A stretch of 59,511 nt of DNA, taken from Acidobacteriaceae bacterium. GTDB lineage: Bacteria > Acidobacteriota > Terriglobia > Terriglobales > Acidobacteriaceae. Numbering within the stretch: position 1 is the first letter of the stretch; every line of letters begins with the position of its first letter. The notes beneath the pieces are model-generated. The model was not told where the DNA came from, searched no databases, and saw only the letters and a program-made list of their open reading frames with translations. This document shows, one piece after another, positions 2,864-59,511 of this stretch. The DNA is taken from contig PKUV01000128.1 of NCBI GenBank assembly GCA_003131315.1, forward strand, positions 1-59,511, in the 5' to 3' direction. Made by a program: the position numbers and the translations under genes.

Positions 2864-2891
2864 CTGCCGCGAGCGCAGCTAGTTAATCAAT

Positions 2892-2941
2892 GGAGAGACG
2901 GGCGTCTCGCCCGTCTGCCGGGCGGGGACGCCCGGCTCTCC
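2892..2941. repeat. Three-way-junction palindromic repeat after recA
   Basis: An outer stem GGAGAG/CTCTCC encloses two hairpins, ACGGGCG-TCT-CGCCCGT and GCCGGGCG-GGGA-CGCCCGGC. An inverted copy of the same design lies at 37318-37374 after the BON gene. Position after a stop codon suggests a role as transcription or mRNA 3'-end structure, though no T-run follows. Confidence 0.75.
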
Positions 2942-3041
2942 ATTATTTCACCTCTATCACCCTTCGATTGCCATCCCTGCTTTCCCCCGCATACAATCCT
3001 TGTTTCCTTCATAGTTCGACCTTTCTTCGACCGAGGGCCTC

Positions 3042-10129: not shown

Positions 10130-10157
10130 CCGTGTGGCGCGGACACTCCTGTCCGCG
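10130..10157. repeat. Stop-adjacent hairpin repeat (GTGGCGCGG family)
   Basis: The sequence CCGTGTGGCGCGGACACTCC with a completing GTCCGCG starts immediately after the M48 stop codon; GCGGACA-CTCC-TGTCCGC forms the stem. Other copies are at 38533-38558, 39958-39983 and 45534-45562, the last also directly after a TGA. Confidence 0.75.
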
Positions 10158-13870: not shown

Positions 13871-14267
13871 CCTTAAAACCTCCGAAACAAATTTCCTTGG
13901 AACCTAGCGTGCTTCGACGATGTTCAGCCGCGGGCTGACATCGTATGAACTCTTTGATTTTGAAAACGAAAAATAGTTTACACCCTGGTTTGAACAACAA
14001 ACTCCGAAGACGGTGGCATCGACGTGCTCTTTCGGCCGCGCTCGAGAATCCAGCCCCGGAAGGGCGATCCAGCTTAGCCCAGCGCTTCAGCGCTGGGAAA
14101 AGTGGAACAAATGATTCAAGTCCCGGAGGGACGACCCAGTTCTCGCGTGCACTCGCTTCTCCCTCTCCACGAACTCACTCGCAAATCCCTCACCGTCCCC
14201 ACCACCGGACCAGCCCTCGGCGATGTTATCCTAATCCGGGATCACGCCGCAGGGCTTTAACCTCCTC
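13871..14267. other. Intergenic region with a palindromic repeat
   Basis: No gene is visible between the divergent M16 protease and ribosomal protein S1 genes. The right half is occupied by the repeat at 14046-14156. The rest should contain the promoters of both genes, but I cannot place them with confidence. Confidence 0.6.
14046..14156. repeat. Multi-hairpin repeat (CCCAGCGCTTCAGCGCTGGG family)
   Basis: Contains CCCCGGAAGGGC, the hairpin CCCAGCGCTTCAGCGCTGGG, and GTCCCGGAGGGAC, ending in CCCAGTTCTCGCGTGCA. A very similar copy lies at 31757-31861 inside a larger element with terminal inverted repeats. Confidence 0.8.
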
Positions 14268-16042: not shown

Positions 16043-16110
16043 TCGTATCAGGGCATCGCTTTAGCGATGCCGTAAGTTCGTCGAAACCAAACGCCCCTTT
16101 AGGGGCTGGG
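16043..16110. repeat. Two-hairpin repeat (TTCGTATCAGGGC family)
   Basis: TTCGTATCAGGGCATCGC begins the element; hairpins GGCATCGC-TTTA-GCGATGCC and GCCCC-TTTA-GGGGC follow. Similar copies are at 20012-20080, 33151-33226, 42252-42318 and, inverted, 53720-53793. Confidence 0.8.
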
Positions 16111-20011: not shown

Positions 20012-20080
20012 CGTATCAGGGCATGCCTTCCTTCAGGCATGCCGTAAGTGCTGCACTTATGAGGGCGTCTTCAGGCGCCG
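20012..20080. repeat. Two-hairpin repeat (TTCGTATCAGGGC family)
   Basis: TTCGTATCAGGGCATGCC is followed by a GGCATGCC-TTCCTTCA-GGCATGCC palindrome and a GGCG-TCTTCA-GGCGCC hairpin. Lies in the spacer before the respiratory operon. Confidence 0.75.
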
Positions 20081-31514: not shown

Positions 31515-31972
31515 AACAAAACAATTTAGCAGAACCAAAAATTCTTCGGAGCTTCCTGCCCTTAGCAGGAATCTATATCTTTGATCTAATATTGCTGTGG
31601 CCGAGCCGCCGTTGATGACTCATACCGTGGAGGGACGGGCGTCTCGCGAGCCTGCCCTGAGCGAAGTCAAAGAGCATTGGATTTTGGGTGGCGCAGCGCT
31701 TCAGTGTGTGCGTGAGAACTCGTTTTCGGGTAACCCGGTGGAACGAAACACAGGGGAATCCAGCCCCGGAGGGGCGAACCAGCTTAGCCCAGCGCTTCAG
31801 CGCTGGGTAAGGTGGAAGGAAATGAGTCAAGTCCCGGAGGGACGACCCAGTTCTCACGCACACTCTTCAGTGCTGCGATAACTGGCTTGTTTGCAGAAGC
31901 GGCTTTAGCCGCTGAGGTCACACTTCGTGCTCGGGAACTAGTTTTTCCGCAGCCTGAGGAATTTCGTTAAAA
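31515..31972. other. Intergenic region filled by repeats
   Basis: No gene. Contains GGACGGGCG-TCT-CGC-type palindrome remnants at 31628-31650 and the 158-bp element described at 31706-31863. The remaining 31864-31972 has a short GCGGCTTTAGCCGC hairpin and must include the promoter for the efflux genes. An open frame here is composed of repeat sequence. Confidence 0.6.
31706..31863. repeat. MITE-like element with 15-bp terminal inverted repeats
   Basis: GTGTGCGTGAGAACT at 31706-31720 and its exact complement AGTTCTCACGCACAC at 31849-31863 bound a segment with three hairpins (CCCCGGAGGGGC; CCCAGCGCTTCAGCGCTGGG; GTCCCGGAGGGAC). The right two-thirds recurs at 14046-14156. Confidence 0.8.
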
Positions 31973-36388: not shown

Positions 36389-36714
36389 GCCGGTGGAGAG
36401 ATGGGCGCCCTCGCCCGTCCGCGTAGAGACAGCCGCCCTCGGCTGTCCAGCCGAGCGCAGCAAGAAAGTGGAACACGCTATCGCTCCAGCCGCGAAGCGG
36501 CGACACGTGAAAGCCCGGCACGTCAGTGCCGGGAAACAAAGGTGGAACAAAGTCGAGTCCCGGAGGGACGGCACACGAGTTGCGATACAGACTCGGCCGC
36601 CGATCCCCCGGCGCAAGAAAAAGCATCCTCGCGGCCCTTTCCAGCGTCAGAAAAGTGCGAAGAATTTCACCGGCTCCCACCATGTCGTAAGAAGTCTTGC
36701 GTGAGGTCAAAGAA
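36389..36714. repeat. Repeat cluster between the RND pump and BON genes
   Basis: No gene. Three modules stand in a row: a GGGCG-CCCT-CGCCC palindrome near 36409; GACAGCCG-CCCT-CGGCTGTC followed by GCCGAGC-GCA (36429-36463), the same two-hairpin design found inside tsaC and nrdJ; and the three-hairpin element at 36485-36575 (GCCGCGAAGCGGC, CCGGCACGTCAGTGCCGG, GTCCCGGAGGGAC), also seen at 56350-56440 and 59245-59335. Confidence 0.75.
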
Positions 36715-37317: not shown

Positions 37318-37374
37318 GGTGGAGAGCCGGGCGTCCCCGCCCGGCTGAACGGGCGAGACACCCGTTACTCCACC
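37318..37374. repeat. Three-way-junction palindromic repeat, inverted copy
   Basis: Outer stem GGTGGAG/CTCCACC with inner hairpins AGCCGGGCG-TCCC-CGCCCGGCT and AACGGGCG-AGA-CACCCGTT. It is the reverse complement design of the element after recA (2892-2941) and likewise follows a stop codon. Confidence 0.75.
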
Positions 37375-37508
37375 GTATGAATTATCACGCGGTCGCAGTA
37401 CCAGTCTTCACTTACCGCGATTCTGCCCGCCCCCGATTTTCTCTGTGTTCCTCTGTGCCCCCTGTAGTTAGGGTCTTTCGGCAATCCGCAAATCTGACGT
37501 CGGCAATC

Positions 37509-37519: not shown

Positions 37520-38527
37520 ATGCCTCAAACCGCCGATCCCGGCGAAATCGACCACGCCGCCCGGCTCCTCCGCGCCGGCCGCCTCGTCGCCTTCCCCACC
37601 GAAACTGTTTACGGTCTCGGAGCCAACGCCCTCGACGCCGAAGCTGTGGCCCGCATCTACGCCGTCAAACGCAGACCCGGCACCAGCCCGCTCATCGTCC
37701 ACGTAGCTTCGATCGAAATGGCGCAGTCGCTGGTCGCGCGCTGGCCGGAAATCGCTGACCGCCTGGCCCGCCGATTCTGGCCCGGCCCGCTCACCCTGGT
37801 TCTTCCCACGTCCCACGTAGGGGCGGACGCCCTCGTCCGCCCAGCCGAGCGAAGCTCGGCAGCGTCTTCGTCATGGACCATTCCTCCCATCGTCACCGCC
37901 AACCTTCCCACCGTCGGTCTCCGCATGCCCGCGCATCCGATCGCGCTTGCCCTCATCCGCGCCGCCGGCGTTCCACTCGCCGCACCCAGCGCCAACCGCT
38001 TCACCGAACTCTCCCCCACCACCGCCGACCACGTCCGGCGCAGCCTGGGCAGCGACCTCGACTACATCCTCGACGGCGGCCCCTGCAACGTGGGTATCGA
38101 ATCCACTGTCCTGTCGTTAGCCGGATCGCAACCCATTCTGCTTCGCCCCGGAGGAATTCCGCGCACCGAAATAGAATCCCTGATCGGCCCAATCGCTACC
38201 GCAGCCGATCCGGCCACCGGCCCGCATCCCGCTCCGGGCCTGCACCCGCGGCACTACAGCCCGCGCACCACTTTGTACTTAGCGACGAATGGAAAATTGC
38301 CCGATCAGGGCCAGGGACTTTACCTACAGCACCAGAATCCGCCCGGCCGCACCAACATCGCCACCCACCAGATGCCGCAATCCGCCGCCGACTACGCCGC
38401 CGCGCTATACGAAGTTCTCCACCAGGCGGACGCCGGAAATTACAACTGGATTGCCATAGATCTCCCGCCCAGCACGCCCGACTGGGAAGCCATCCAAGAT
38501 CGCCTCAAACGCGCCGCAGCGAAATAA
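37520..38527 (+). CDS. tsaC: Threonylcarbamoyl-AMP synthase (Sua5/YrdC), with repeat-derived insert
   Basis: Makes threonylcarbamoyl-AMP from threonine, bicarbonate and ATP for the t6A modification of tRNAs. The 335-residue protein has the YrdC domain (LVAFPTETVYGLGANALD, YAVKRRPGTSPLIVHV, FWPGPLTLVLP, GLRMPAHPIALALIRAAGVPL in segments, PSANRFTELSPT) and a C-terminal Sua5 domain (about 230-335) starting near HPAPGLHPRHYSP. Between LVLPTSH and IPPIVTANLP, where the family normally has only a few residues, about 20 residues (VGADALVRPAERSSAASSSW) are encoded by a palindromic element at 37820-37860. The frame stays open, so the enzyme is likely functional. Confidence 0.93.
   Translation: MPQTADPGEIDHAARLLRAGRLVAFPTETVYGLGANALDAEAVARIYAVKRRPGTSPLIVHVASIEMAQSLVARWPEIADRLARRFWPGPLTLVLPTSHVGADALVRPAERSSAASSSWTIPPIVTANLPTVGLRMPAHPIALALIRAAGVPLAAPSANRFTELSPTTADHVRRSLGSDLDYILDGGPCNVGIESTVLSLAGSQPILLRPGGIPRTEIESLIGPIATAADPATGPHPAPGLHPRHYSPRTTLYLATNGKLPDQGQGLYLQHQNPPGRTNIATHQMPQSAADYAAALYEVLHQADAGNYNWIAIDLPPSTPDWEAIQDRLKRAAAK
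37820..37860. repeat. In-frame two-hairpin element inside tsaC
   Basis: GGGCGGACG-CCCT-CGTCCGCCC (37821-37842) followed by A and GCCGAGC-GAA-GCTCGGC (37844-37860). The same module, with compensating stem changes, lies inside nrdJ at 44185-44224. In both genes the second hairpin is read as AERSSAA. Confidence 0.85.
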
Positions 38528-38702
38528 TCCCCTGTGGCGCGGACACTCCTGTCCGCGAAAGCATAAATCCACACTGTCATCCTGAGCGAAGCGAAGGACC
38601 TATGTATTTGAATTCGCTGCGCACGAGATCCTTCGCTTCGCTCAGGATGACAACCCAAACTTATGTCGCGAACTTACGGGACACGATACTGACTTTGCCT
38701 CT
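38528..38702. repeat. Repeats between the convergent tsaC and serA genes
   Basis: A GTGGCGCGGACACTCC hairpin copy (38533-38558) is joined to a left-truncated copy of the 4811-4977 element (38575-38689), with arms TGTCATCCTGAGCGAAGCG and its complement, and the full right end TTACGGGACACGATAC. The left terminal repeat is missing, as if the hairpin repeat had replaced it. Confidence 0.8.
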
Positions 38703-39923
38703 CTAACCCCGAGCCTCTCCCGGCATCCGCACCCGAATCGTATGCGGAACGGCGCGCAGTTTTGCCAGCAACGGCTCATCGCAATCCCGATTGATGTCGT
38801 AAATCGCATAGCCAAGCGCCCCGCGAGTGTCCAGCACTTGCCGCTCAATATTGATCTCCCGATCCGCCAGAATGTCGTTAATCGCCCGCAAGATTCCCGG
38901 CACGTTGTGGTGGATATGCATCAGCCGGTGCGATCCCGGATCATAGTCCAGATGACAATGAGGCAGGTTCACGCTCAGCAGCGAATTCCCGCTCTTGAAA
39001 TAATCGATCATCCGCGCCGAAACAAACTGGCCGATATTCTGCTGTGCCTCCTCCGTGCTGCCGCCGACATGGGGCGTCAAAATCACATTCGGCAGCCCTT
39101 TTAGCGGGCTGGAAAACGCGCCGCCACTCTCCGGTTCCTGCGGAAACACATCCACCGCCGCTCCTGCCAGCTTCCCGCTCTTCAAATGCCGGGCCAGCGC
39201 CTCATGATCCACCACAAACCCGCGGCTCAAATTGATCAGGCACGCTCCGTCTTTCATTCCGCGGAGCTCGTCTTCCCCAAACAAATCCTGGTTCTGCACC
39301 TTCCCATCCACATGCAGAGTGATCACGTCGGAAGTTTCCAGCAATTCGCGAAAGCTCACCGCCCGAGCATTCCCGCGCGCCAGCACATGCGTCAGATCAT
39401 GGAACACCACCCGCATGCCCATCGCCTCGGCCAGATCCGATACCTGCGACCCGATCTTCCCGTAGCCCACAATCCCCAGCGTCAGCCCGCGCACCTCATG
39501 CGATCCCGCCGACGATTTATTCCACACCCCGCCATGCAGTTGCGTGCTCGCCTCAAACGTCCGCCGCATCAGCAGGATGATCTCCCCCATCGCCAACTCC
39601 GCCACTGACCGGCTGTTCGAGTGCGGATCGTTAAACACCCCAATCCCCCGATCGCTCGAGGCCGCGCGATCGATCTTATCCACGCCAATACAGAAAGCCC
39701 CCACCGACACCAGCTCCGGCGCCGCATCCAGCACTGCCGCCGTGATGCGCGTCTTCGAACGCACTCCCAGAATCGAAGTCCCGCGCACCTTCTCGACCAG
39801 TTCGCGCTCGTCGAGCGCTCCCTTCAGTGACTCCACCTCGAACCCCGCTTCTTCAAACTGCGAAGCCGCCACCCCGCTGATGCTCTCCAGCAATAGAACC
39901 TTCAAAGACCCTCCTGAACCCAT
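38703..39923 (-). CDS. serA: D-3-phosphoglycerate dehydrogenase with ACT domain
   Basis: Oxidises 3-phosphoglycerate to 3-phosphohydroxypyruvate, first step of serine synthesis. 406 residues from ATG 39923, or 400 from TTG 39905, which has AGGAGG just upstream and gives the typical start MKVLLLESISG. A TATAAT lies on this strand at 39944-39939, so the TTG would have an ordinary short leader. The NAD domain shows LGIVGYGKIGSQVSDLAEAM; catalytic residues are Arg in LINLSRGFVVD, Glu in VFPQEPESGGAF and His in NVILTPHVGGST. A C-terminal ACT domain (NVPGILRAINDILADREINI) is the serine-feedback site. This is the short E. coli-like form without the extra ASB domain. Confidence 0.94.
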   Translation of the reverse strand: MGSGGSLKVLLLESISGVAASQFEEAGFEVESLKGALDERELVEKVRGTSILGVRSKTRITAAVLDAAPELVSVGAFCIGVDKIDRAASSDRGIGVFNDPHSNSRSVAELAMGEIILLMRRTFEASTQLHGGVWNKSSAGSHEVRGLTLGIVGYGKIGSQVSDLAEAMGMRVVFHDLTHVLARGNARAVSFRELLETSDVITLHVDGKVQNQDLFGEDELRGMKDGACLINLSRGFVVDHEALARHLKSGKLAGAAVDVFPQEPESGGAFSSPLKGLPNVILTPHVGGSTEEAQQNIGQFVSARMIDYFKSGNSLLSVNLPHCHLDYDPGSHRLMHIHHNVPGILRAINDILADREINIERQVLDTRGALGYAIYDINRDCDEPLLAKLRAVPHTIRVRMPGEARG

Positions 39924-39957
39924 TAAAAGTGAGATTGAATTATAAAGACAATCCGTC

Positions 39958-40040
39958 CGTGGCGCGGGCACTCCAGCCCGCGAACCGCAGATTCCACTAG
40001 AATTCCCCTGTGTTCCTCTGCGTCCTCTGTGGTAAAGATT
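39958..40040. repeat. Hairpin repeats before superoxide dismutase
   Basis: GTGGCGCGGGCACTCC-AGCCCGCG (39959-39983) and a CCCTGTGTTCCTCTGCGTCC stretch belonging to the CCACAG-GGACACAG family. The spacer 39924-40180 holds no gene; it should contain the promoters of serA and sod. Confidence 0.65.
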
Positions 40041-40180
40041 TCTCCCGGCAGCGGTCCACCCAGTTTTCGGCGCGCCCGGGTTCCCCTTAGCGGTAAAACT
40101 ATTAAAGACGCGCGCACGTGCCTGAGCGTTGAATCTTTCTGCCCCACCCCGTCATCTTTAATGCTTTGGAGGAAATGAAA

Positions 40181-40798
40181 ATGGCGCATGAACTGCCCCC
40201 CCTGCCGTATGACTACACGGCGCTCGAACCCACCATCGACGAAAAGACGATGCATCTACATCACGACATGCATCACGCCGCTTACGTCAAGAACCTCAAC
40301 ACCGCACTCGACAAGCATCCTGAGCTGCACAAGAAAAGTGCGGAAGACCTGATCCGCGACCTGAACGCCATCCCCGAAGACATCCGAGGCGCCGTCCGCA
40401 ACAACGGCGGCGGCCACGTCAACCACACCATGTTCTGGAACATCATGAAGCCCAAAGGCGGAGGCGATCCCACCGGCCCCATAGCCGGCGCGATCAAGAA
40501 AACTTTCGGCGACTTCAAAACCTTCCAGGAAAAATTCAACGCCGCCGGTGTAGGCCAGTTCGGCAGCGGATGGGTGTGGCTGGCAGGCGACTCCAAAGGT
40601 GAAGTGAAAATCCTCTCCACCCCCAACCAGGACAGCCCGCTCTCGCAAGGCCTCTATCCCATCTTCGGCAACGACGTCTGGGAGCACGCCTACTATCTCA
40701 AATACAACAACCGCCGTCCCGAATACCTGCAAGCCTGGTGGAACGTGGTCAACTGGGAAGAAATCAACAAGCGCTACCACTCGTCTCTGAAGAAGTAA
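40181..40798 (+). CDS. Superoxide dismutase (Fe/Mn type)
   Basis: Converts superoxide to hydrogen peroxide and oxygen. The 205-residue protein starts [22 protein letters not shown] is 8 nt upstream. Metal ligands are visible as His in [17 protein letters not shown], His in [11 protein letters not shown], and Asp and His in [29 protein letters not shown] and [11 protein letters not shown] (a Gly-Gln/His type position is not clear) do not settle Fe against Mn; the overall pattern is closer to the Mn/cambialistic group. No signal peptide, so cytoplasmic. It stands alone with its own spacer upstream. Confidence 0.95.
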
Positions 40799-41283
40799 TG
40801 CTCGCTCGTGTAGGGACTCTCGTGTGGCCATTACCGAGCAAGGTTTCAGAGTTTCAAAGTTGCAAGGTTTCAAGGTAGCAACAAAACCTTGGGCGATCCG
40901 AACCGCAACGAATCTTTGAAACTCTGAAACCTTAAAACTCTGAAACCTTTCTGTTCTTAACCTGTGCACCCCTTGTGCAAATTTCGGTCGCCGAGCGCAG
41001 CCGCGTCCAGCGCAATTTTCCGCCCACCGCTCAAACCCCGCCGCTCGTGCGCCAACCGCAGTTACCCTCGACCCATGCTTGATCCGGATTCATCCCATCC
41101 AATCCGCGAGCGAAAATTCCACCGTTGCACAATTCTTGTGTAATTGACCCGCCCTCTTTCTGCGCGTACAGTCGCTCCACTTGAAACAAGCATTCCGCCG
41201 AGCGGCGGCCGTGCTCGGTCAAAACCTGAAACCTGAAAGCCAGAAACGAACACCGGCCCTACCGAGGGGTGAAAGAAAGCGCT
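40799..41283. repeat. Gap with TTTCAA-arm element, copy A
   Basis: No gene seen. 40841-40948 is a hairpin-forming element: the left arm is built of 7-8 nt units such as GTTTCAGA, GTTTCAAAG, GGTTTCAAGG and the right arm of their complements (TTTGAAACTCTGAAACC). The rest, 40950-41283, shows nothing recognisable apart from the likely promoter region of the next small gene. Confidence 0.7.
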
Positions 41284-41568
41284 ATGAATCTTGAAAGCCA
41301 ATGGACCGTCTACCGCACCCGTTTTCTGGTGCGCGCTCGTCAACTCACCGAACCACTCGTCTTTACCGATGCCCTCGGCCGCGAACAATCCGGCCGGCCT
41401 GGCGACTATCTCGTCGAGTCCTCCGGCGGCATAAGACGGATCACCACCCAAGCCCTCTTCGAAGACATCTACGTGCCTCTCGCACCCACGCAGCATGGAG
41501 CGCCGGCCGTCCTCGCCCGGCCCGTGGCCCGCGCCTCGCCAGAAGATCGCACCCGTGCCACCGCATAA
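41284..41568 (+). CDS. Small hypothetical protein with repeat-derived tail
   Basis: Unrecognised family. A 94-residue protein (ATG 41284) beginning MNLESQWTVYRTRFLVRARQ, with a compact beta-rich core (RPGDYLVESSGGIRRITTQA). The last 25 residues (QHGAPAVLARPVARASPED) coincide with a degenerate GCCGG-CCGTCCTCG-CCCGGC palindrome, so the C-terminus may have been altered by a repeat. No membrane segments. It precedes the nrdJ regulatory region on the same strand but is separated from it by a TTTCAA-arm element. Confidence 0.65.
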   Translation: MNLESQWTVYRTRFLVRARQLTEPLVFTDALGREQSGRPGDYLVESSGGIRRITTQALFEDIYVPLAPTQHGAPAVLARPVARASPEDRTRATA

Positions 41569-41571
41569 GGC

Positions 41572-41662
41572 CAGGTTTCAAGGGTTCAAAGTTTCAACGT
41601 TCCAAAAGCGCCCTATATGTTCAGACTTTGAAACCATGAAACCTTGAAACTTTGAAACCTGG
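41572..41662. repeat. TTTCAA-arm element, copy B
   Basis: Arms CAGGTTTCAAGGGTTCAAAG and AACCTTGAAACTTTGAAACC around a centre with TATGTTCAGAC. The centre resembles that of copy D (53101-53174, GGTGTTCAGAC). It directly follows the stop of the small gene. Confidence 0.8.
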
Positions 41663-41705
41663 CTTCACCCCAATTTCCCAACTCGATACCCTTACCACTT
41701 TCGGG

Positions 41706-41751
41706 CTACAAGATATGGTGTTTCCCTCTTGACAGGCACCATATACGGGAG
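41706..41751 (+). promoter_or_regulatory. Two candidate NrdR boxes before nrdJ
   Basis: Box 1, CTACAAGATATGGTGT (41706-41721), matches 12 of 16 positions of the NrdR consensus ACACWATATATWGTGT. Box 2, GCACCATATACGGGAG (41736-41751), matches about 10. Their starts are 30 bp apart, close to three helical turns, as is usual for paired NrdR sites. NrdR is the ATP/dATP-sensing repressor of ribonucleotide reductase genes. Confidence 0.65.
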
Positions 41752-41757
41752 TACGTT
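41729..41757 (+). promoter_or_regulatory. Probable nrdJ promoter
   Basis: TTGACA (41729-41734), a 17-bp spacer and TACGTT (41752-41757). NrdR box 2 fills the spacer, so a bound repressor would block RNA polymerase. The predicted start is near 41764, leaving a 720-nt leader before nrdJ. Confidence 0.5.
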
Positions 41758-42020
41758 AAGCATCCCAGAGCACTTTTGCAGACCTCCTTATAAAGGGGGC
41801 TATGACCGTAAACACAGGGGCGAGACTCAAAGTTGAGGTGACTTCGCGTCTCCCCTTAACGGGAAACCATCCCTCCTGAGTGGATGGAAATTAGCGGTGA
41901 CTTCCCCCGGTTTGGCCCCGCCAGGCATCCCCTCGGGGGGATTCATCGACAGAATTAGAATTTCGCGGCTGAAGCTGCTCCCCGACCGGCCCAGCTTCCT
42001 TCGCGCCATTAGGAGCCCCG

Positions 42021-42242
42021 ATGGAAGGTTTAATCGAACTCGTTGCCGCCTCTTTTGCCCGCCATGGCATCGAATGCCCAGCCGCCGATCTTCAGTTGGC
42101 CCAACCAGTCCAAACAAGTTCAGCCCAACCGAGACTTGTCGAGACGAAGTCAGCCCACGCGGTCTCCGCTGAGCCAACCCGTACCACCGCGCTCCCAGAG
42201 CACAATTACAGAAAAAGCTCGCAGGCCGATCCAGCTCCGTAA
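42021..42242 (+). CDS. Small hypothetical protein in the nrdJ leader
   Basis: A possible 73-residue product starting MEGLIELVAASFARHGIECP, with AGGAG 6 nt before the ATG, which is the best Shine-Dalgarno in this stretch. The first 30 residues look helical and protein-like (AASFARHGIECPAADLQLAQ); the rest is low-complexity and polar (AVSAEPTRTTALPEHN). No family is recognised. It might be a real small protein, or an upstream frame that is translated to control nrdJ. Confidence 0.45.
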   Translation: MEGLIELVAASFARHGIECPAADLQLAQPVQTSSAQPRLVETKSAHAVSAEPTRTTALPEHNYRKSSQADPAP

Positions 42243-42251
42243 CGAGTTTGG

Positions 42252-42318
42252 GTCGTATCAGGGTATCGCTTTAGCGACACCGAAGCCTTCGAAATCAAAC
42301 GCCTCTTTAGGGGCTGGG
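42252..42318. repeat. Two-hairpin repeat (TCGTATCAGGG family)
   Basis: TCGTATCAGGGTATCGC with a loop TTTA, then GCCTC-TTTA-GGGGC. Slightly degenerate relative to the copy at 16043-16110. Confidence 0.7.
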
Positions 42319-42485
42319 CGCCGGGAAGCTGAAGCAATCTGTTTCGCCGCGCCGCCGTATGCATTTGAGACAATGAGCGCCATGCGCAATCTGGTCGAAT
42401 CGGCTTCTGGGAAGGGTTGGTTTCAACTTTGAAACCTGTTATTTAGATCAACTGATTTTTGGCATCATCTAATGAGGAGAAGGAA

Positions 42486-45400
42486 ATGCCCGAAGTGCGC
42501 GACCAAATCAAAACTCAAACCGCTGCCAGCAATACTAAGAAGAAGGCTCCCGGCCTTACCTTCCGCCGTTTTTTCACCAAGCCCGGTGTCTCCCCCTACA
42601 ACGAGGTCGAGTGGGAACTCCGCGACGCTCAGATCACCGACTCCCAGGGAGGCATGATCTTCGAGCAGAAAAACGTCGAGGTCCCCAAAGACTGGTCCAT
42701 GACCGCGACCAACATTGTCGCCTCGAAATATCTTCACGGACAGATCGGCACCGATGAGCGCGAAACCGGCGTGCGTCAACTGGTCGTCCGCGTCGCCGAA
42801 ACCATTCGCGACTGGGGCATGAAGGACGGATACTTCCGCTCCTCCGAAGACGCCGCCACCTTCCACGACGAACTCGTCCACCTGCTCATCCGCCAGCACG
42901 TGGCCTTCAACTCGCCCGTCTGGTTCAACGTAGGCTGCGAACGCGTCGAGCCTAAATCCGACGCGACCAACTGGCACTGGAACTTCACCACTCAGCAAGT
43001 GGAATTCGGCGTCACCGGATACACGCGCCCGCAGTGCTCCGCTTGCTTCATCAATTCAGTGAAAGATTCGCTCGATTCCATCCTCACGCTCGCCAAGACC
43101 GAAGGCATGCTTTTCAAGTGGGGATCCGGCACCGGCACCAATCTTTCTACGCTGCGTTCCTCCACCGAAGTTCTCAGCGGCGGCGGCACCGCCAGTGGCC
43201 CGCTCAGCTTCATGAAAGGCTTCGACGCCTTCGCCGGCGTCATCAAGTCCGGAGGCAAGACGCGCCGCGCCGCCAAGATGGTCATCCTCAACATCGACCA
43301 TCCCGATATCGTCGACTTCATCGAGTGCAAGTCCAAAGAAGAAGCCAAAGCGCACGCGCTGGTATTGCAGGGTTACGACGGATCGCATCCCGACTCCGAC
43401 GCCTACAGCTCCATCTTCTTCCAGAACGCCAACAACTCCGTTCGCGTTACCGACGACTTCATGGTTGCCGTCATGCGCGACACCGACTTCTCCACCCGCT
43501 CCATCGTCGATGGCCGGGTAGTCAACACTTACAAAGCCAAAGACCTGCTCCAGAAGATTTCCGAAGCCACCTGGCAATGCGGCGATCCCGGCATGCAGTA
43601 CGATTCCACCGTCAACCGCTGGCACACTTCGAAAAACACCTCGCGCATCAACGCCTCGAATCCCTGCAGCGAGTACATGTTCCTCGATGACTCCGCCTGC
43701 AACCTAGCCAGCCTGAACCTGCTGAAGTTCGCGCCCAACGGCACGTTCGATGTGGAAGCCTACAGGCACGCCGTGGACGTGGTAATCACCGCCCAGGAAA
43801 TTCTGGTGGACAACGCCGGATATCCCACCGAACTTATCGGCAAGAACTCGCACGACTATCGCCCGCTAGGTCTAGGCTACGCGAACTTAGGCGCGCTCTT
43901 GATGGCCGCCGGACTTCCCTACGATTCCGATGCCGGACGCGACTACGCCGCCTGCGTAACCGCCATAATGTGCGGCGAAGCGTATCTGCAGTCGTCACGC
44001 ATAGCCGAACAATGCGAGCCGCTGGGCCCCATTACCGACACAGTCCAAACGCGCCTGGGAATAACCACCGCGGAAAATATGTCCGGAGCAGCCTGCCCCG
44101 GCTGGTACATCAATCGCGAGCCCTTCCTGGACGTAATAAGGATGCACCGAGCCAGCGTAAACAACATAGGCAGCGCTCGTGGAGGGACGGGCGTCTCGCC
44201 CGTCCAAGCGGAGCGCAGCTCCGCAGCCAATCAACTGTCCGAGCTGATAGAAGCCTCGAAGCAATGCTGGGACGAAGCGCTCGCCCACGGCGAAAAACAC
44301 GGCTACCGCAACTCCCAAGTAACAGTTCTAGCTCCAACAGGAACGATCGGCTTCATGATGGACTGCGACACGACCGGCATCGAGCCCGACTTGGCGCTAA
44401 TCAAATACAAGAAACTGGTCGGCGGCGGGATGATCAAGATCGTGAACAACACTGTCCCCGGGGCGCTGTTCAAGCTGGGTTACACGCATGAGCAGACCGA
44501 CGCGATCGTTTCTTACGTGGACGCTACCGGCACGATCGAAGGCGCGCCGCACGTTAAAGACGAGCATCTGGCGGTGTTTGATTGCTCGTTCAAGCCGGCG
44601 AAGGGCACGCGTTCCATCCAATACATGGGACATCTGAAGATGATGGCCGCTGCCCAGCCCTTCATTTCGGGAGCGATCTCGAAGACCGTGAACCTGCCGA
44701 ACGCAGCGTCGGTAGACGATATTTCGGAGGCTTACATCCAGGCCTGGAAGTTGGGCCTGAAGTCGGTGGCGGTTTATCGCGATGGATGCAAGCAGTCGCA
44801 GCCGCTTTCGGCGGCCGGAACCAAGACGGCCCAGAGTGGCTCCGGTGGAGCGACGGGCGTCTCGCCCGTCCCCGTCCATGTTGAAGACGACAACCTCGAC
44901 GCTCCACCGCGCGCCGTGCGTCACCGTTTGAAAGAAGAACGCATGTCGGTGACGCACAAGTTCAACATTGGAGGCCACGAAGGTTACGTCATCGTCGGCC
45001 TGTATCCCAACGGCGAGCCGGGCGAGATCTTCATCAAGATGGCCAAGGAAGGCTCAACCGTTTCCGGCCTGATGGACAGCTTCTCCCTAACCACATCCAT
45101 CGCGCTGCAGCACGGCGTTCCGCTGAGCCTGCTCTGCGAGAAGTTCGCGCACACCCGCTTTGAGCCCAGCGGCTGGTCGAGCCATCCCGAGATCGGCTAT
45201 GCCAAGTCAATCGTGGACTACATCTTCCGCTGGCTGCACCTGCGCTTCCTGACTGGACAGCAGCAGATGCTGTTTGACAACCTGCGTCCTAAGTCTTGGC
45301 CCGCTCCGGAAGGTGTCGGCGATCTGAACGGCTCCATTGGTTCCGGTTCAGGGGGTTCGCTGACACCTGAGACCCGAGACCTGAGACCTGGTTCCGTCCA

Positions 45401-45533
45401 TGCCGCCGATGCCTTAGCCAGCATGATCGACATGGGCGACGCTCCCAGTTGCCACGTCTGCGGCTCCATCATGGTCCGCAACGGCAGCTGCTACAAGTGC
45501 ATGAGCTGCGGCAGCACCAGCGGATGCAGCTGA
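42486..45533 (+). CDS. nrdJ: Vitamin B12-dependent (class II) ribonucleotide reductase, with repeat-derived inserts
   Basis: Reduces ribonucleotides to deoxyribonucleotides using adenosylcobalamin as radical source. 1015 residues from ATG 42486 behind GAGGAGAAGG. Seen: PQCSACFINSV (first redox Cys), GTGTNLSTLRSS, NPCSEYMFLDDSACNLASL with the thiyl-radical Cys and the catalytic Asn and Glu, APTGTIGFMMDCDTTGIEPD for phosphate binding, and a Cys-rich tail (CHVCGSIMVRNGSCYKCMSC) that re-reduces the site. Three stretches are repeat-encoded: about 563-582 (RGGTGVSPVQAERSSAA), about 787-794 (TGVSPV), and about 959-969 (LTPETRDLRPGS, from a heptamer run). All keep the frame and fall outside the motifs. 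Probably under NrdR. Confidence 0.95.
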   Translation: MPEVRDQIKTQTAASNTKKKAPGLTFRRFFTKPGVSPYNEVEWELRDAQITDSQGGMIFEQKNVEVPKDWSMTATNIVASKYLHGQIGTDERETGVRQLVVRVAETIRDWGMKDGYFRSSEDAATFHDELVHLLIRQHVAFNSPVWFNVGCERVEPKSDATNWHWNFTTQQVEFGVTGYTRPQCSACFINSVKDSLDSILTLAKTEGMLFKWGSGTGTNLSTLRSSTEVLSGGGTASGPLSFMKGFDAFAGVIKSGGKTRRAAKMVILNIDHPDIVDFIECKSKEEAKAHALVLQGYDGSHPDSDAYSSIFFQNANNSVRVTDDFMVAVMRDTDFSTRSIVDGRVVNTYKAKDLLQKISEATWQCGDPGMQYDSTVNRWHTSKNTSRINASNPCSEYMFLDDSACNLASLNLLKFAPNGTFDVEAYRHAVDVVITAQEILVDNAGYPTELIGKNSHDYRPLGLGYANLGALLMAAGLPYDSDAGRDYAACVTAIMCGEAYLQSSRIAEQCEPLGPITDTVQTRLGITTAENMSGAACPGWYINREPFLDVIRMHRASVNNIGSARGGTGVSPVQAERSSAANQLSELIEASKQCWDEALAHGEKHGYRNSQVTVLAPTGTIGFMMDCDTTGIEPDLALIKYKKLVGGGMIKIVNNTVPGALFKLGYTHEQTDAIVSYVDATGTIEGAPHVKDEHLAVFDCSFKPAKGTRSIQYMGHLKMMAAAQPFISGAISKTVNLPNAASVDDISEAYIQAWKLGLKSVAVYRDGCKQSQPLSAAGTKTAQSGSGGATGVSPVPVHVEDDNLDAPPRAVRHRLKEERMSVTHKFNIGGHEGYVIVGLYPNGEPGEIFIKMAKEGSTVSGLMDSFSLTTSIALQHGVPLSLLCEKFAHTRFEPSGWSSHPEIGYAKSIVDYIFRWLHLRFLTGQQQMLFDNLRPKSWPAPEGVGDLNGSIGSGSGGSLTPETRDLRPGSVHAADALASMIDMGDAPSCHVCGSIMVRNGSCYKCMSCGSTSGCS
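44181..44224. repeat. In-frame two-hairpin element inside nrdJ, insert 1
   Basis: GGACGGGCG-TCT-CGCCCGTCC (44185-44205), AA, then GCGGAGC-GCA-GCTCCGC (44208-44224). Read as GGTGVSPVQAERSSAA. Same module as 37820-37860 in tsaC. Confidence 0.85.
44847..44870. repeat. In-frame single-hairpin element inside nrdJ, insert 2
   Basis: GACGGGCG-TCT-CGCCCGTC (44852-44870) preceded by GGAGC. It is read in the same frame as insert 1, again giving TGVSPV. Confidence 0.8.
45361..45395. repeat. Heptamer tandem repeat inside nrdJ
   Basis: Units CCTGAGA, CCCGAGA, CCTGAGA, CCTGGTT in tandem, read as TPETRDLRPGS in a linker just before the Cys-rich tail of NrdJ. Confidence 0.7.
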
Positions 45534-45562
45534 CCGTGTGGCGCGGGCACTCTTGCCCGCGG
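45534..45562. repeat. Stop-adjacent hairpin repeat (GTGGCGCGG family)
   Basis: CCGTGTGGCGCGGGCACTC with TTGCCCGCG follows the nrdJ TGA with no gap, exactly as the copy after the M48 gene (10130). Spacer to the next gene also contains GGCACGGCTTCAGCCGTGCC at 45640-45659. Confidence 0.75.
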
Positions 45563-48204: not shown

Positions 48205-48282
48205 TGCCCCACCTTTCGCGCCTTTCGAAAGGTGGGATTCCACGGTCCCGTCCCGCTTGGGCTTTTCCGGTCTCTTTCGCGT
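48205..48282. repeat. CCTTTCGAAAGG repeat, copy 2
   Basis: TGCCCCACCTTTCGCGCC, CTTTCGAAAGGTGGGATTCC and CTCTTTCGCG at the end. A third copy, inverted, is at 53041-53100. Confidence 0.7.
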
Positions 48283-53719: not shown

Positions 53720-53793
53720 CAGCCCCTAAAGGGGCATCTGACTTCGAGGATTTACGGCATCGCTAGAGCGATGCCCTGATACGAAGCCCAAGT
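53720..53793. repeat. Two-hairpin repeat (inverted copy of the TATCAGGGC family)
   Basis: CAGCCCCTAAAGGGGC, then GGCATCGCTAGAGCGATGCC and CTGATACGAA. Reverse complement of 16043-16110. Followed at 53855-53890 by heptamer-like GCTGACG-GCTGACG-GCTGAGA units. The gap 53624-53903 has no gene. Confidence 0.8.
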
Positions 53794-56194: not shown

Positions 56195-56602
56195 GCCCGT
56201 CCACCGTCCTAGTGGTCAGATCGGCAAAACGCCGGTTCTGTATTAGTGCCCAAAGCTGTTGGCATCCGGAAGCCGGGAGCAACCGGGCTGTCCCTTAGCA
56301 GTCTGTGTCATAGCTTGAGGTTGAGCGAAAAAGTGGCAATACTCTACCTCCAGCCGCGAAGCGGCAGAACAGGAAAGTCCGGCACGTGAGTGCCGGGAAG
56401 GCGGAAGTGGGACAGATCAAGTCCCGCAAGGGACGGCACCCGATCTAGGACACAGACTCCTTAGGCGCAGGTCTCTCCGATCGTGGCAAAGCCCCGCGGG
56501 CGTTGATGTTCGTCGGTGCCCAACTTCATTCTTTATCCTTGCTTGTGCGCGAGGTTCGTTTCGACTTGCATCTTTCGCGGGTACCACAGCATCTCCTTGT
56601 GT
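56195..56602. other. Gap with three-hairpin repeat
   Basis: No gene. 56350-56440 holds GCCGCGAAGCGGC, CCGGCACGTGAGTGCCGG and GTCCCGCAAGGGAC hairpins, matching 36485-36575 and 59245-59335. GGTTGAGCGAAAAA at 56311-56324 precedes it, as GTTGAGCGAAAAA does at 59215. The remainder should include the cysO promoter, not identified. Confidence 0.65.
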
Positions 56603-59175: not shown

Positions 59176-59511
59176 ATGCTGAACTCTGCCCCAGAGTCGG
59201 CGTCACAGCTCAAAGTTGAGCGAAAAATTCGCTTTACGACACGGCCAGCCGCGAAGCGGCGAAACAGGAAAGCCCGGCACGTGAGTGCCGGGAAGGCGGG
59301 AGCGGACAAATCGAGTCCCGTCAGGGACGGCACTAGGCTCTCACTGCCGAGCCCTCCCCTCTTTCATCACGAACATCCATGACCGGCATCACAGACTCTC
59401 GACCAGTCCGGTGCGACACTATTCTCCTGATTGGGGCAGTGAAGAGGCGTGTCCGTCAACCAGGACGGCTCTCGAAACTGCCCCAAAACCATTTTCAGCG
59501 CTCTTTGACAA
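59176..59511. other. Terminal gap with three-hairpin repeat
   Basis: 59245-59335 is the third copy of the GCCGCGAAGCGGC / CCGGCACGTGAGTGCCGG / GTCCCGTCAGGGAC element. From 59336 to the end I see nothing recognisable; a gene may begin beyond the window. Confidence 0.7.

Follow-up and report, generated by a model that had tools for sequence, protein, structure and literature searches.

A two-hairpin REP-like element, probably mobile, in frame in core genes of an acidobacterium and its relatives

Here we describe a two-hairpin palindromic element that lies in frame in tsaC and nrdJ, two core genes of an Acidobacteriaceae bacterium (phylum Acidobacteriota). Both genes stand in positions 1 to 59,511 of contig PKUV01000128.1, assembly GCA_003131315.1 (contig C88 in our genome set); ‘the window’ below means this whole stretch. 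Very probably the element is a repetitive extragenic palindromic (REP) element with a second hairpin, that is, non-autonomous mobile DNA whose in-frame copies are kept in loops, at sites that persist with turnover. REPs are named as extragenic, yet in this one genome a single family appears to provide 14 genes, all with protein family matches, with peptide loops. The evidence is that the family is dispersed and has covarying stems, that relatives have or lack the insert or hold different versions of it at one site, that the frames are open, and that in two relatives the hairpin adjoins a Y1 transposase.

The module, about 50 nt long, begins with a GT(A/G)G foot, followed by a first hairpin (9-bp stem, 3-4 nt loop), a spacer of 1-2 nt and a second hairpin (7-bp stem, 3-nt loop of the GNA type). 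An earlier note on this DNA had claimed that tsaC and nrdJ share one module, that its second hairpin is read as AERSSAA in both proteins, and that a non-coding relative lies near 36429-36463. All of this holds. Both genes have the foot, a 9-bp hairpin 1 and hairpin 2, their open reading frame (ORF) translations both contain AERSSAA, and the relative is a truncated copy at 36423-36463. Hairpin 1 of TsaC reads GADALVRP, with its stem in the same register as TGVSPV in NrdJ. An Rfam scan of the window at gathering scores gave no match to the two-hairpin element itself. The features are as follows, where L numbers denote loci and G numbers genomes.

37520..38527, plus strand: tsaC ORF (Sua5-type threonylcarbamoyl-AMP synthase; TIGR00057, PF01300, PF03481) with the element
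37814..37863, plus strand: two-hairpin element in tsaC, peptide HVGADALVRPAERSSAA; GTAG foot 37817-37820, hairpin 1 37821-37842 (9-bp stem, 4-nt loop), hairpin 2 37844-37860; also in L152, not in 27 other readable orthologues
42459..45533, plus strand: nrdJ ORF (B12-dependent ribonucleotide reductase; NF005122, PF02867) with the element
44179..44226, plus strand: two-hairpin element at nrdJ site 1, peptide GGTGVSPVQAERSSAA; GTGG foot 44179-44182, hairpin 1 44185-44205 (9 bp, 3-nt loop), hairpin 2 44208-44224; also in L042, L043 and L072, not in the other 77 aligned loci
44845..44870 (hairpin 44852-44870), plus strand: nrdJ site 2, a lone hairpin 1 that reads GATGVSPV; no net length change against L042
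36392..36419, plus strand: GTGGAG-type hairpin, intergenic
36423..36463, plus strand: truncated two-hairpin element, intergenic, with a GTAG foot, hairpin 1 (stem AGACAGCCG/CGGCTGTCC, one mismatch) and half of hairpin 2
37318..37376, no strand assigned: GTGGAG-type hairpin followed by an inverted degenerate partner (seen by eye), intergenic, upstream of tsaC
2889..2943, no strand assigned: inverted pair of similar first hairpins
31626..31680, plus strand: hairpin 1 derivative split by a nested CTGCCCTGAGCGAAGTC-type segment

The module belongs to a dispersed family. In a search of the whole genome (6,004,649 bases in 194 contigs), exact second hairpins number 34 against 0 for a reversed-pattern control, GTRGGGAC-type (GTRG-tagged) copies 99 against 3, and GTGGAG-type first hairpins with at most one mismatch 221 against 6. 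When copies are located by hairpin 2 alone, 29 of the 34 have a GTRG foot 23-28 nt upstream; of the five footless copies, three carry a nested segment, one is cut by Ns and one is truncated. The window has 29 perfect stems of at least 8 bp, a figure that includes unrelated palindromes, against 6-11 in five Markov-generated sequences. We collected 143 distinct elements around the 34 and 99 hits, together with some of the GTGGAG type. GTRG together with an 8-9 bp stem of no more than two mismatches is present in 118 of them (partly by construction), and 80 of the 118 also have a second hairpin with at most one mismatch. Neighbouring plus and minus hits in the GTGGAG- and GTRGGGAC-type lists form inverted pairs like those of bacterial interspersed mosaic elements and REPINs.

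The stems of these copies differ by paired changes, as had been claimed from the two genes. In an unselected set, where hairpin 2 served to locate the copies and arms were defined by position whether paired or not, the arms of hairpin 1 are 91.1% paired against 76.3% after shuffling; there are 15 distinct arm pairs, and 0 of 5000 shuffles reached as high a value. The corresponding figures for the 118-element set, 90.5% against 65.4%, are inflated because that set was chosen for stems with at most two mismatches.

Across 149 genomes of the phylum, the GTRGGGAC pattern is in clear excess in our genome (99/3, copies/controls) and in G006 (37/8), and in weaker excess in, for example, G138 (16/5), G133 (12/2) and G153 (11/2). 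Near relatives reach 167/1, 185/2, 166/6 and others, with a weak excess in G121 (15/8). G028 (1/3), G093 (3/1), G032 (1/4), G124 (3/3) and G129 (6/5) lack the pattern or have it at control level; G028 still has variants at its MetH and MetG sites. The nested segment mentioned above, about 26 nt long and of GAGCCTGCCCTGAGCGAAGTCGAAGG type, sits at one place in hairpin 1 (L016, L017, L028, L171, L212 and window 31626-31680). It is also found inside genes with the frame unbroken, namely in MetH of G123 and MutS2 of G125.

Comparison with orthologues shows that the modules in TsaC and at NrdJ site 1 are insertions. For TsaC we compared 31 orthologues, 28 of them readable at the site (three without the anchor motif were left unread), and one of the 28 has the insert: L152, from genome G123. 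There the hairpins are decayed and the segment reads LPTTHVGADALVHPAEQSEAARTIPQ; L153 (G121) reads LKKQSAIPDIVT, and the net gain of L152 over L153, counted by eye, is 51 nt. NrdJ site 1 is filled in 3 of 80 loci, with a net gain of 51 nt against L049, again counted by eye. Loci with the insert (L042 and L043, both at 90% identity) and without it (L044 and L049, at 89 and 91%) are similarly close; by name, the nearest NrdJ relatives are Acidobacteriaceae and Terriglobia metagenome-assembled genomes. Because the two distributions differ, the TsaC and NrdJ inserts arose separately. The outcome that would have refuted the earlier note, orthologues without any repeat yet unchanged at these places, is not seen for TsaC and NrdJ site 1, but NrdJ site 2 does not pass this check. 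There the sequence of the near relative L042 differs but is just as long (15 residues by eye), so that the comparison gives no support for an insertion; what stands of the earlier claim about this lone hairpin is that TGVSPV is read twice in NrdJ.

The earlier note had called both genes essential, but the window TsaC may not be the only one in the genome, given a second, shorter TsaC-like ORF with 39% identity (G000:C125:23259-23846); a full-length orthologue of the window protein was found in only 2 of 12 relatives searched. A more distant NrdJ relative, L085, has another repeat-like peptide, HNVILSEATEGSAVEGPAAKLRPGS, in the same loop near site 1. Near the NrdJ C-terminus, at window 45361-45391, there is a short CCTGAGACC-type tandem repeat, read as LTPETRDLRPGS.

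Structural data fit inserts in flexible loops. In the predicted TsaC model (mean predicted local distance difference test score, pLDDT, 90.6), the sole segment of at least three residues below 50 is residues 101-109, inside the insert, and it sits between predicted strand 91-97 and helix 123-126. When TsaC is aligned to the solved Sua5 structure 6f89, the insert falls in a gap; among solved NrdJ proteins, the closest in sequence, 7b9q, has a segment about as long at site 1. In-gene REPs have been argued to occupy flexible loops (PMC6006769).

Coding signal on both flanks was found for 22 of the 143 elements. From these candidates L204 and L218 were removed as native sequence with chance pattern matches, and L027, L195, L205 and L229 as unsupported or close to an ORF end. 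The curated set holds 16 copies in 14 genes: TsaC, NrdJ (two copies), DusB, MnmE, MetRS, MutS2, PcrA/UvrD (two copies), MetH, NadD, PrmC, an MFS protein, an NtrC-like regulator, an FeS protein and a GAF/TonB protein. The PcrA, MFS and NtrC-like proteins score below the curated whole-protein cut-off of their NCBIfam models. By this coding-signal criterion, eight of the 99 GTRGGGAC copies lie in genes if L195 is counted, besides two native chance matches. Among relatives, 11 of 30 loci taken from the GTRGGGAC search were flagged as in-gene. Two of these 11 stood at 0.06 or below, and several (e.g. L355 and L361) are native by eye; in-gene inserts were confirmed in UvrC (L169), SelA (L358), RecG (L373) and DusB (L380).

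An element has on average 5.2 of its 6 frames open, and a GTAG foot closes one. The earlier note had seen the same frame in both genes, and one sense register is indeed favoured: eight of the 16 copies use it (nine when NrdJ site 2 is assigned by peptide), giving VGTxALxRPAERSSAA. A single fixed frame is rejected by three copies in another sense register and four in antisense. The probability of at least eight copies in one register is 0.0021 at a chance of 1/6, 0.007 at 1/5 and 0.027 at 1/4, or 0.013, 0.042 and 0.16 when corrected for six registers. The set is small and was curated after the peptides had been seen, and the preference is a moderate one. The dropped L195, which matched no family, uses the favoured register, and G120 and G122 have peptides at its site; its removal therefore lowers the register count.

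Near relatives carry different versions of the element at the same sites. Windows around 14 sites were searched in G120-G123, and seven sites also in G028, G093, G125 and G128. For the seven sites in G120-G123, a GTRG hairpin stands at the same place in 16 of 26 readable loci, often with another, still-paired stem, doubled or inverted. By eye, the other ten are mostly decayed, shortened or nested, with DusB of G123 cut by Ns and DusB of G122 holding other sequence. The DusB site is occupied in our genome, G120, G121 and G125 and empty in G028, G093 and G128. NadD has the element in antisense in our genome and in sense in G120, G122 and G123; it is antisense in MutS2 of G128 and MetH of G125, and doubled in DusB and NadD of G120. 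The second stem of MutS2, GGCGAGC/GCTCGCC, is seen once among 61 perfect second stems of our genome. It is common to our genome, G120, G122 and G125, with one mismatch in G121, and hairpin 1 in front of it varies by paired changes in our genome, G120 and G122. The MetG site has decayed second hairpins common to G120 and G122, PrmC of G121 holds a hairpin of another type, that of transposase locus L011 (described below), and MetH of G128 holds a different repeat. The peptides at one site vary among relatives and decay. Whether in-gene REPs of this lineage are long-lived niches in core enzymes, which the REP variants current in a genome re-colonise or convert through speciation events, in both orientations and with the frame kept, is a proposition to which we give an even chance. 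If true, peptide loops in many housekeeping proteins are being written and rewritten simultaneously by one dispersed selfish family.

A possible link to transposases comes from relatives. We fetched 30 loci of L011-like proteins from 15 other genomes, and in two of them, both Pfam Y1_Tnp, this hairpin stands beside the Y1 transposase. Upstream of the transposase in L336 (G130), the full two-hairpin module stands as an inverted pair; in L327 (G126), inverted pairs of hairpin 1 lie on both sides of the gene. Our own genome has 11 Y1 transposase loci. In eight of them the gene is flanked by matching palindromes, of a kind particular to each locus. The palindrome of L011, GTAG-GGCGGACA-CTCC-TGTCCGCC in inverted pairs, is close to the TsaC hairpin.

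We picture the history of the element as follows. Most likely it is spread by a Y1 (HUH) transposase of the RAYT type. Few copies would end up inside genes, where in-frame landings in flexible loops would be retained, most likely translated, and add about 17 residues. An occupied site may then stay a niche, with later copies inserting beside or into it; alternatively, exchange with the dispersed family may swap hairpin 1, so that both arms change together and the frame is held. Either exchange or re-insertion may thus cause the turnover, and the peptide would be nearly neutral.

Several observations weigh against this account. The module was found at 0 of the 11 Y1 loci of our genome, within about 1.5 kb fetched on either side, and therefore no driver is identified there; L327, one of the two linked loci among relatives, is without the GNA-loop second hairpin. 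The seven sites compared at the DNA level were the first of two sets rather than a random choice. At the DusB site, G122 has other sequence, as noted. By eye, the GAF/TonB site is without such a peptide in all four relatives, and the NtrC-like site has one in at most one of the four. Translation of the insert, though most likely, is read from open frames.

Other explanations can be set against re-insertion or exchange as the source of the different versions. In quasi-palindrome correction, template switching during replication carries a change over from one arm to the other, and old hairpins would drift while staying paired, without moving. This would suit MutS2, whose orthologues keep the second stem while both arms of hairpin 1 differ, and NadD of G123, whose perfect stem GGGCAGGTG/CACCTGCCC is not among the perfect stems listed for our genome. 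Many in-gene stems, however, match a few common dispersed types. In G120, for example, a GGACAGCCG stem occurs at four of six scanned hairpin-bearing sites and the dispersed copies listed are, by eye, mostly of that type; moreover, doubling, nesting and inversion at a site require more than arm correction. We regard it as unlikely to be the main process. Repeated, independent insertion into a small number of tolerant loops, none of which stays occupied for long, is a stronger contender, if still on the doubtful side: different elements do occur in one loop across lineages (NrdJ of L085, MetH of G128, PrmC of G121). The unusual MutS2 second stem in five genomes and the decayed MetG hairpins of G120 and G122 point to common descent at those two sites instead.

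The protein level offers two further alternatives. A useful or harmless peptide loop has been argued for Rickettsia palindromic elements (RPEs), and the favoured register could likewise reflect selection of the peptide itself, as eight or nine of 16 copies in one of six registers would suggest. The corrected P of 0.16 at 1/4, the seven copies in other sense or antisense registers, the difference and decay of same-site peptides among relatives, and a small set chosen after the peptides were seen all speak against it, and we find this reading rather improbable. In other systems, ribosomes are known to bypass hairpin-rich inserts, and the insert could be absent from the protein through such bypassing or through removal from the mRNA. 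A skipped insert need not keep the frame, so that open frames argue against skipping. Our own ORFs were partly selected for openness, and only the orthologues count here: 27 of 28 matches (E up to 4e-32) have no stop inside, and the one TAG lies in a match that overruns the end of its joined segment. Skipping therefore seems very improbable.

The REP reading also has to be placed among known systems. REPs are defined by GT[AG]G 0-2 nt 5' of a hairpin with a stem of 7-20 nt and a loop of 2-5 nt (PMC6006769). Like REPs and REPINs with their RAYT (TnpA-REP), the element has a GT(A/G)G foot by the hairpin, a high copy number, inverted pairs and, in two relatives, a Y1 neighbour. Unlike them, it has a second, unrelated GNA-loop hairpin, no transposase locus of its own genome adjoins it, and its sites inside core genes persist with turnover. 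The earlier note had likened the element to RPEs. The likeness holds in that palindromic mobile DNA lies in frame in unrelated proteins (16 copies in 14 genes), with a repeated peptide and with relatives that lack it. RPEs, on the other hand, are about 150 bp long (PMC10969869), and we set membership aside on this length and on the REP features; the features tested, among them the GTRG foot and the Y1 neighbour in two relatives, fit a RAYT-linked REP better. Acidobacterial TIRYT and class 3 TnpA palindromes also flank Y1 transposases, but have long terminal inverted repeats or a CnGA foot in place of GTRG (PMC3733652, PMC6006769).

A 2013 paper already described REPs, including RPE-4 and RPE-6, that lie in frame within genes of several species; many are in DNA synthesis and repair genes and some in tRNA genes (PMC3733652). 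With that paper in print, the in-gene, in-frame REP is a kind already known, and our element resembles its GTAG and CGTC REPs in being often in DNA repair and tRNA-related genes. The passages used from that paper record where REPs lie in individual genomes, with a single instance of two recB genes that have REPs at nearly the same position; our comparison follows seven sites across up to nine genomes, with exchange, doubling and inversion. A literature search (supplements, which may list acidobacterial in-gene REPs, lay outside its scope) gave no account of the two-hairpin form in core genes of Acidobacteriota or of same-site exchange with paired stems. Insertion of other elements into REPs is the subject of PMC1525189, which makes a landing-pad role plausible.

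The functions affected are tRNA modification (TsaC, DusB, MnmE), MetRS, ribonucleotide reductase, the mismatch-repair-like MutS2, PcrA and cofactor enzymes, joined in relatives by UvrC, SelA and RecG. Shared sites that vary between near relatives make it possible to measure how fast gain, exchange, inversion and decay proceed within coding DNA, and to test what a selfish peptide costs an enzyme. Some caution follows as well, in that length variation in such marker genes may stem from mobile DNA.

Palindromes like those of the transposase loci occur in the window. At L011, in gene orientation, inverted pairs at 816-929 and 1493-1606 flank the Y1 transposase, a REPtron-like locus, and hairpins resembling this kind (TGTGGCGCGGACA) lie at window 10138-10157, 38538-38557 and 45542-45561. 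Other Y1 loci (L004, L008 and L009; L006; L010) have their own palindromes, of CCCACTCATTCGC, GGCATCGCT and CGCAGCGGT types, and palindromes resembling these lie at 48208-48236, 16052-16071, 20020-20043 and 53756-53775. The Rfam family Acido-Lenti-1 (RF01687, listed as a small RNA) is found inverted on both sides of Y1 ORFs in L001 (1316-1361/1899-1944) and L002 (1320-1365/1889-1934). It occurs five times in the window, at 14052-14097, 31762-31807, 36488-36533, 56352-56397 and 59247-59292, and has the look of a mobile element's terminal palindrome, not of a gene for an RNA.

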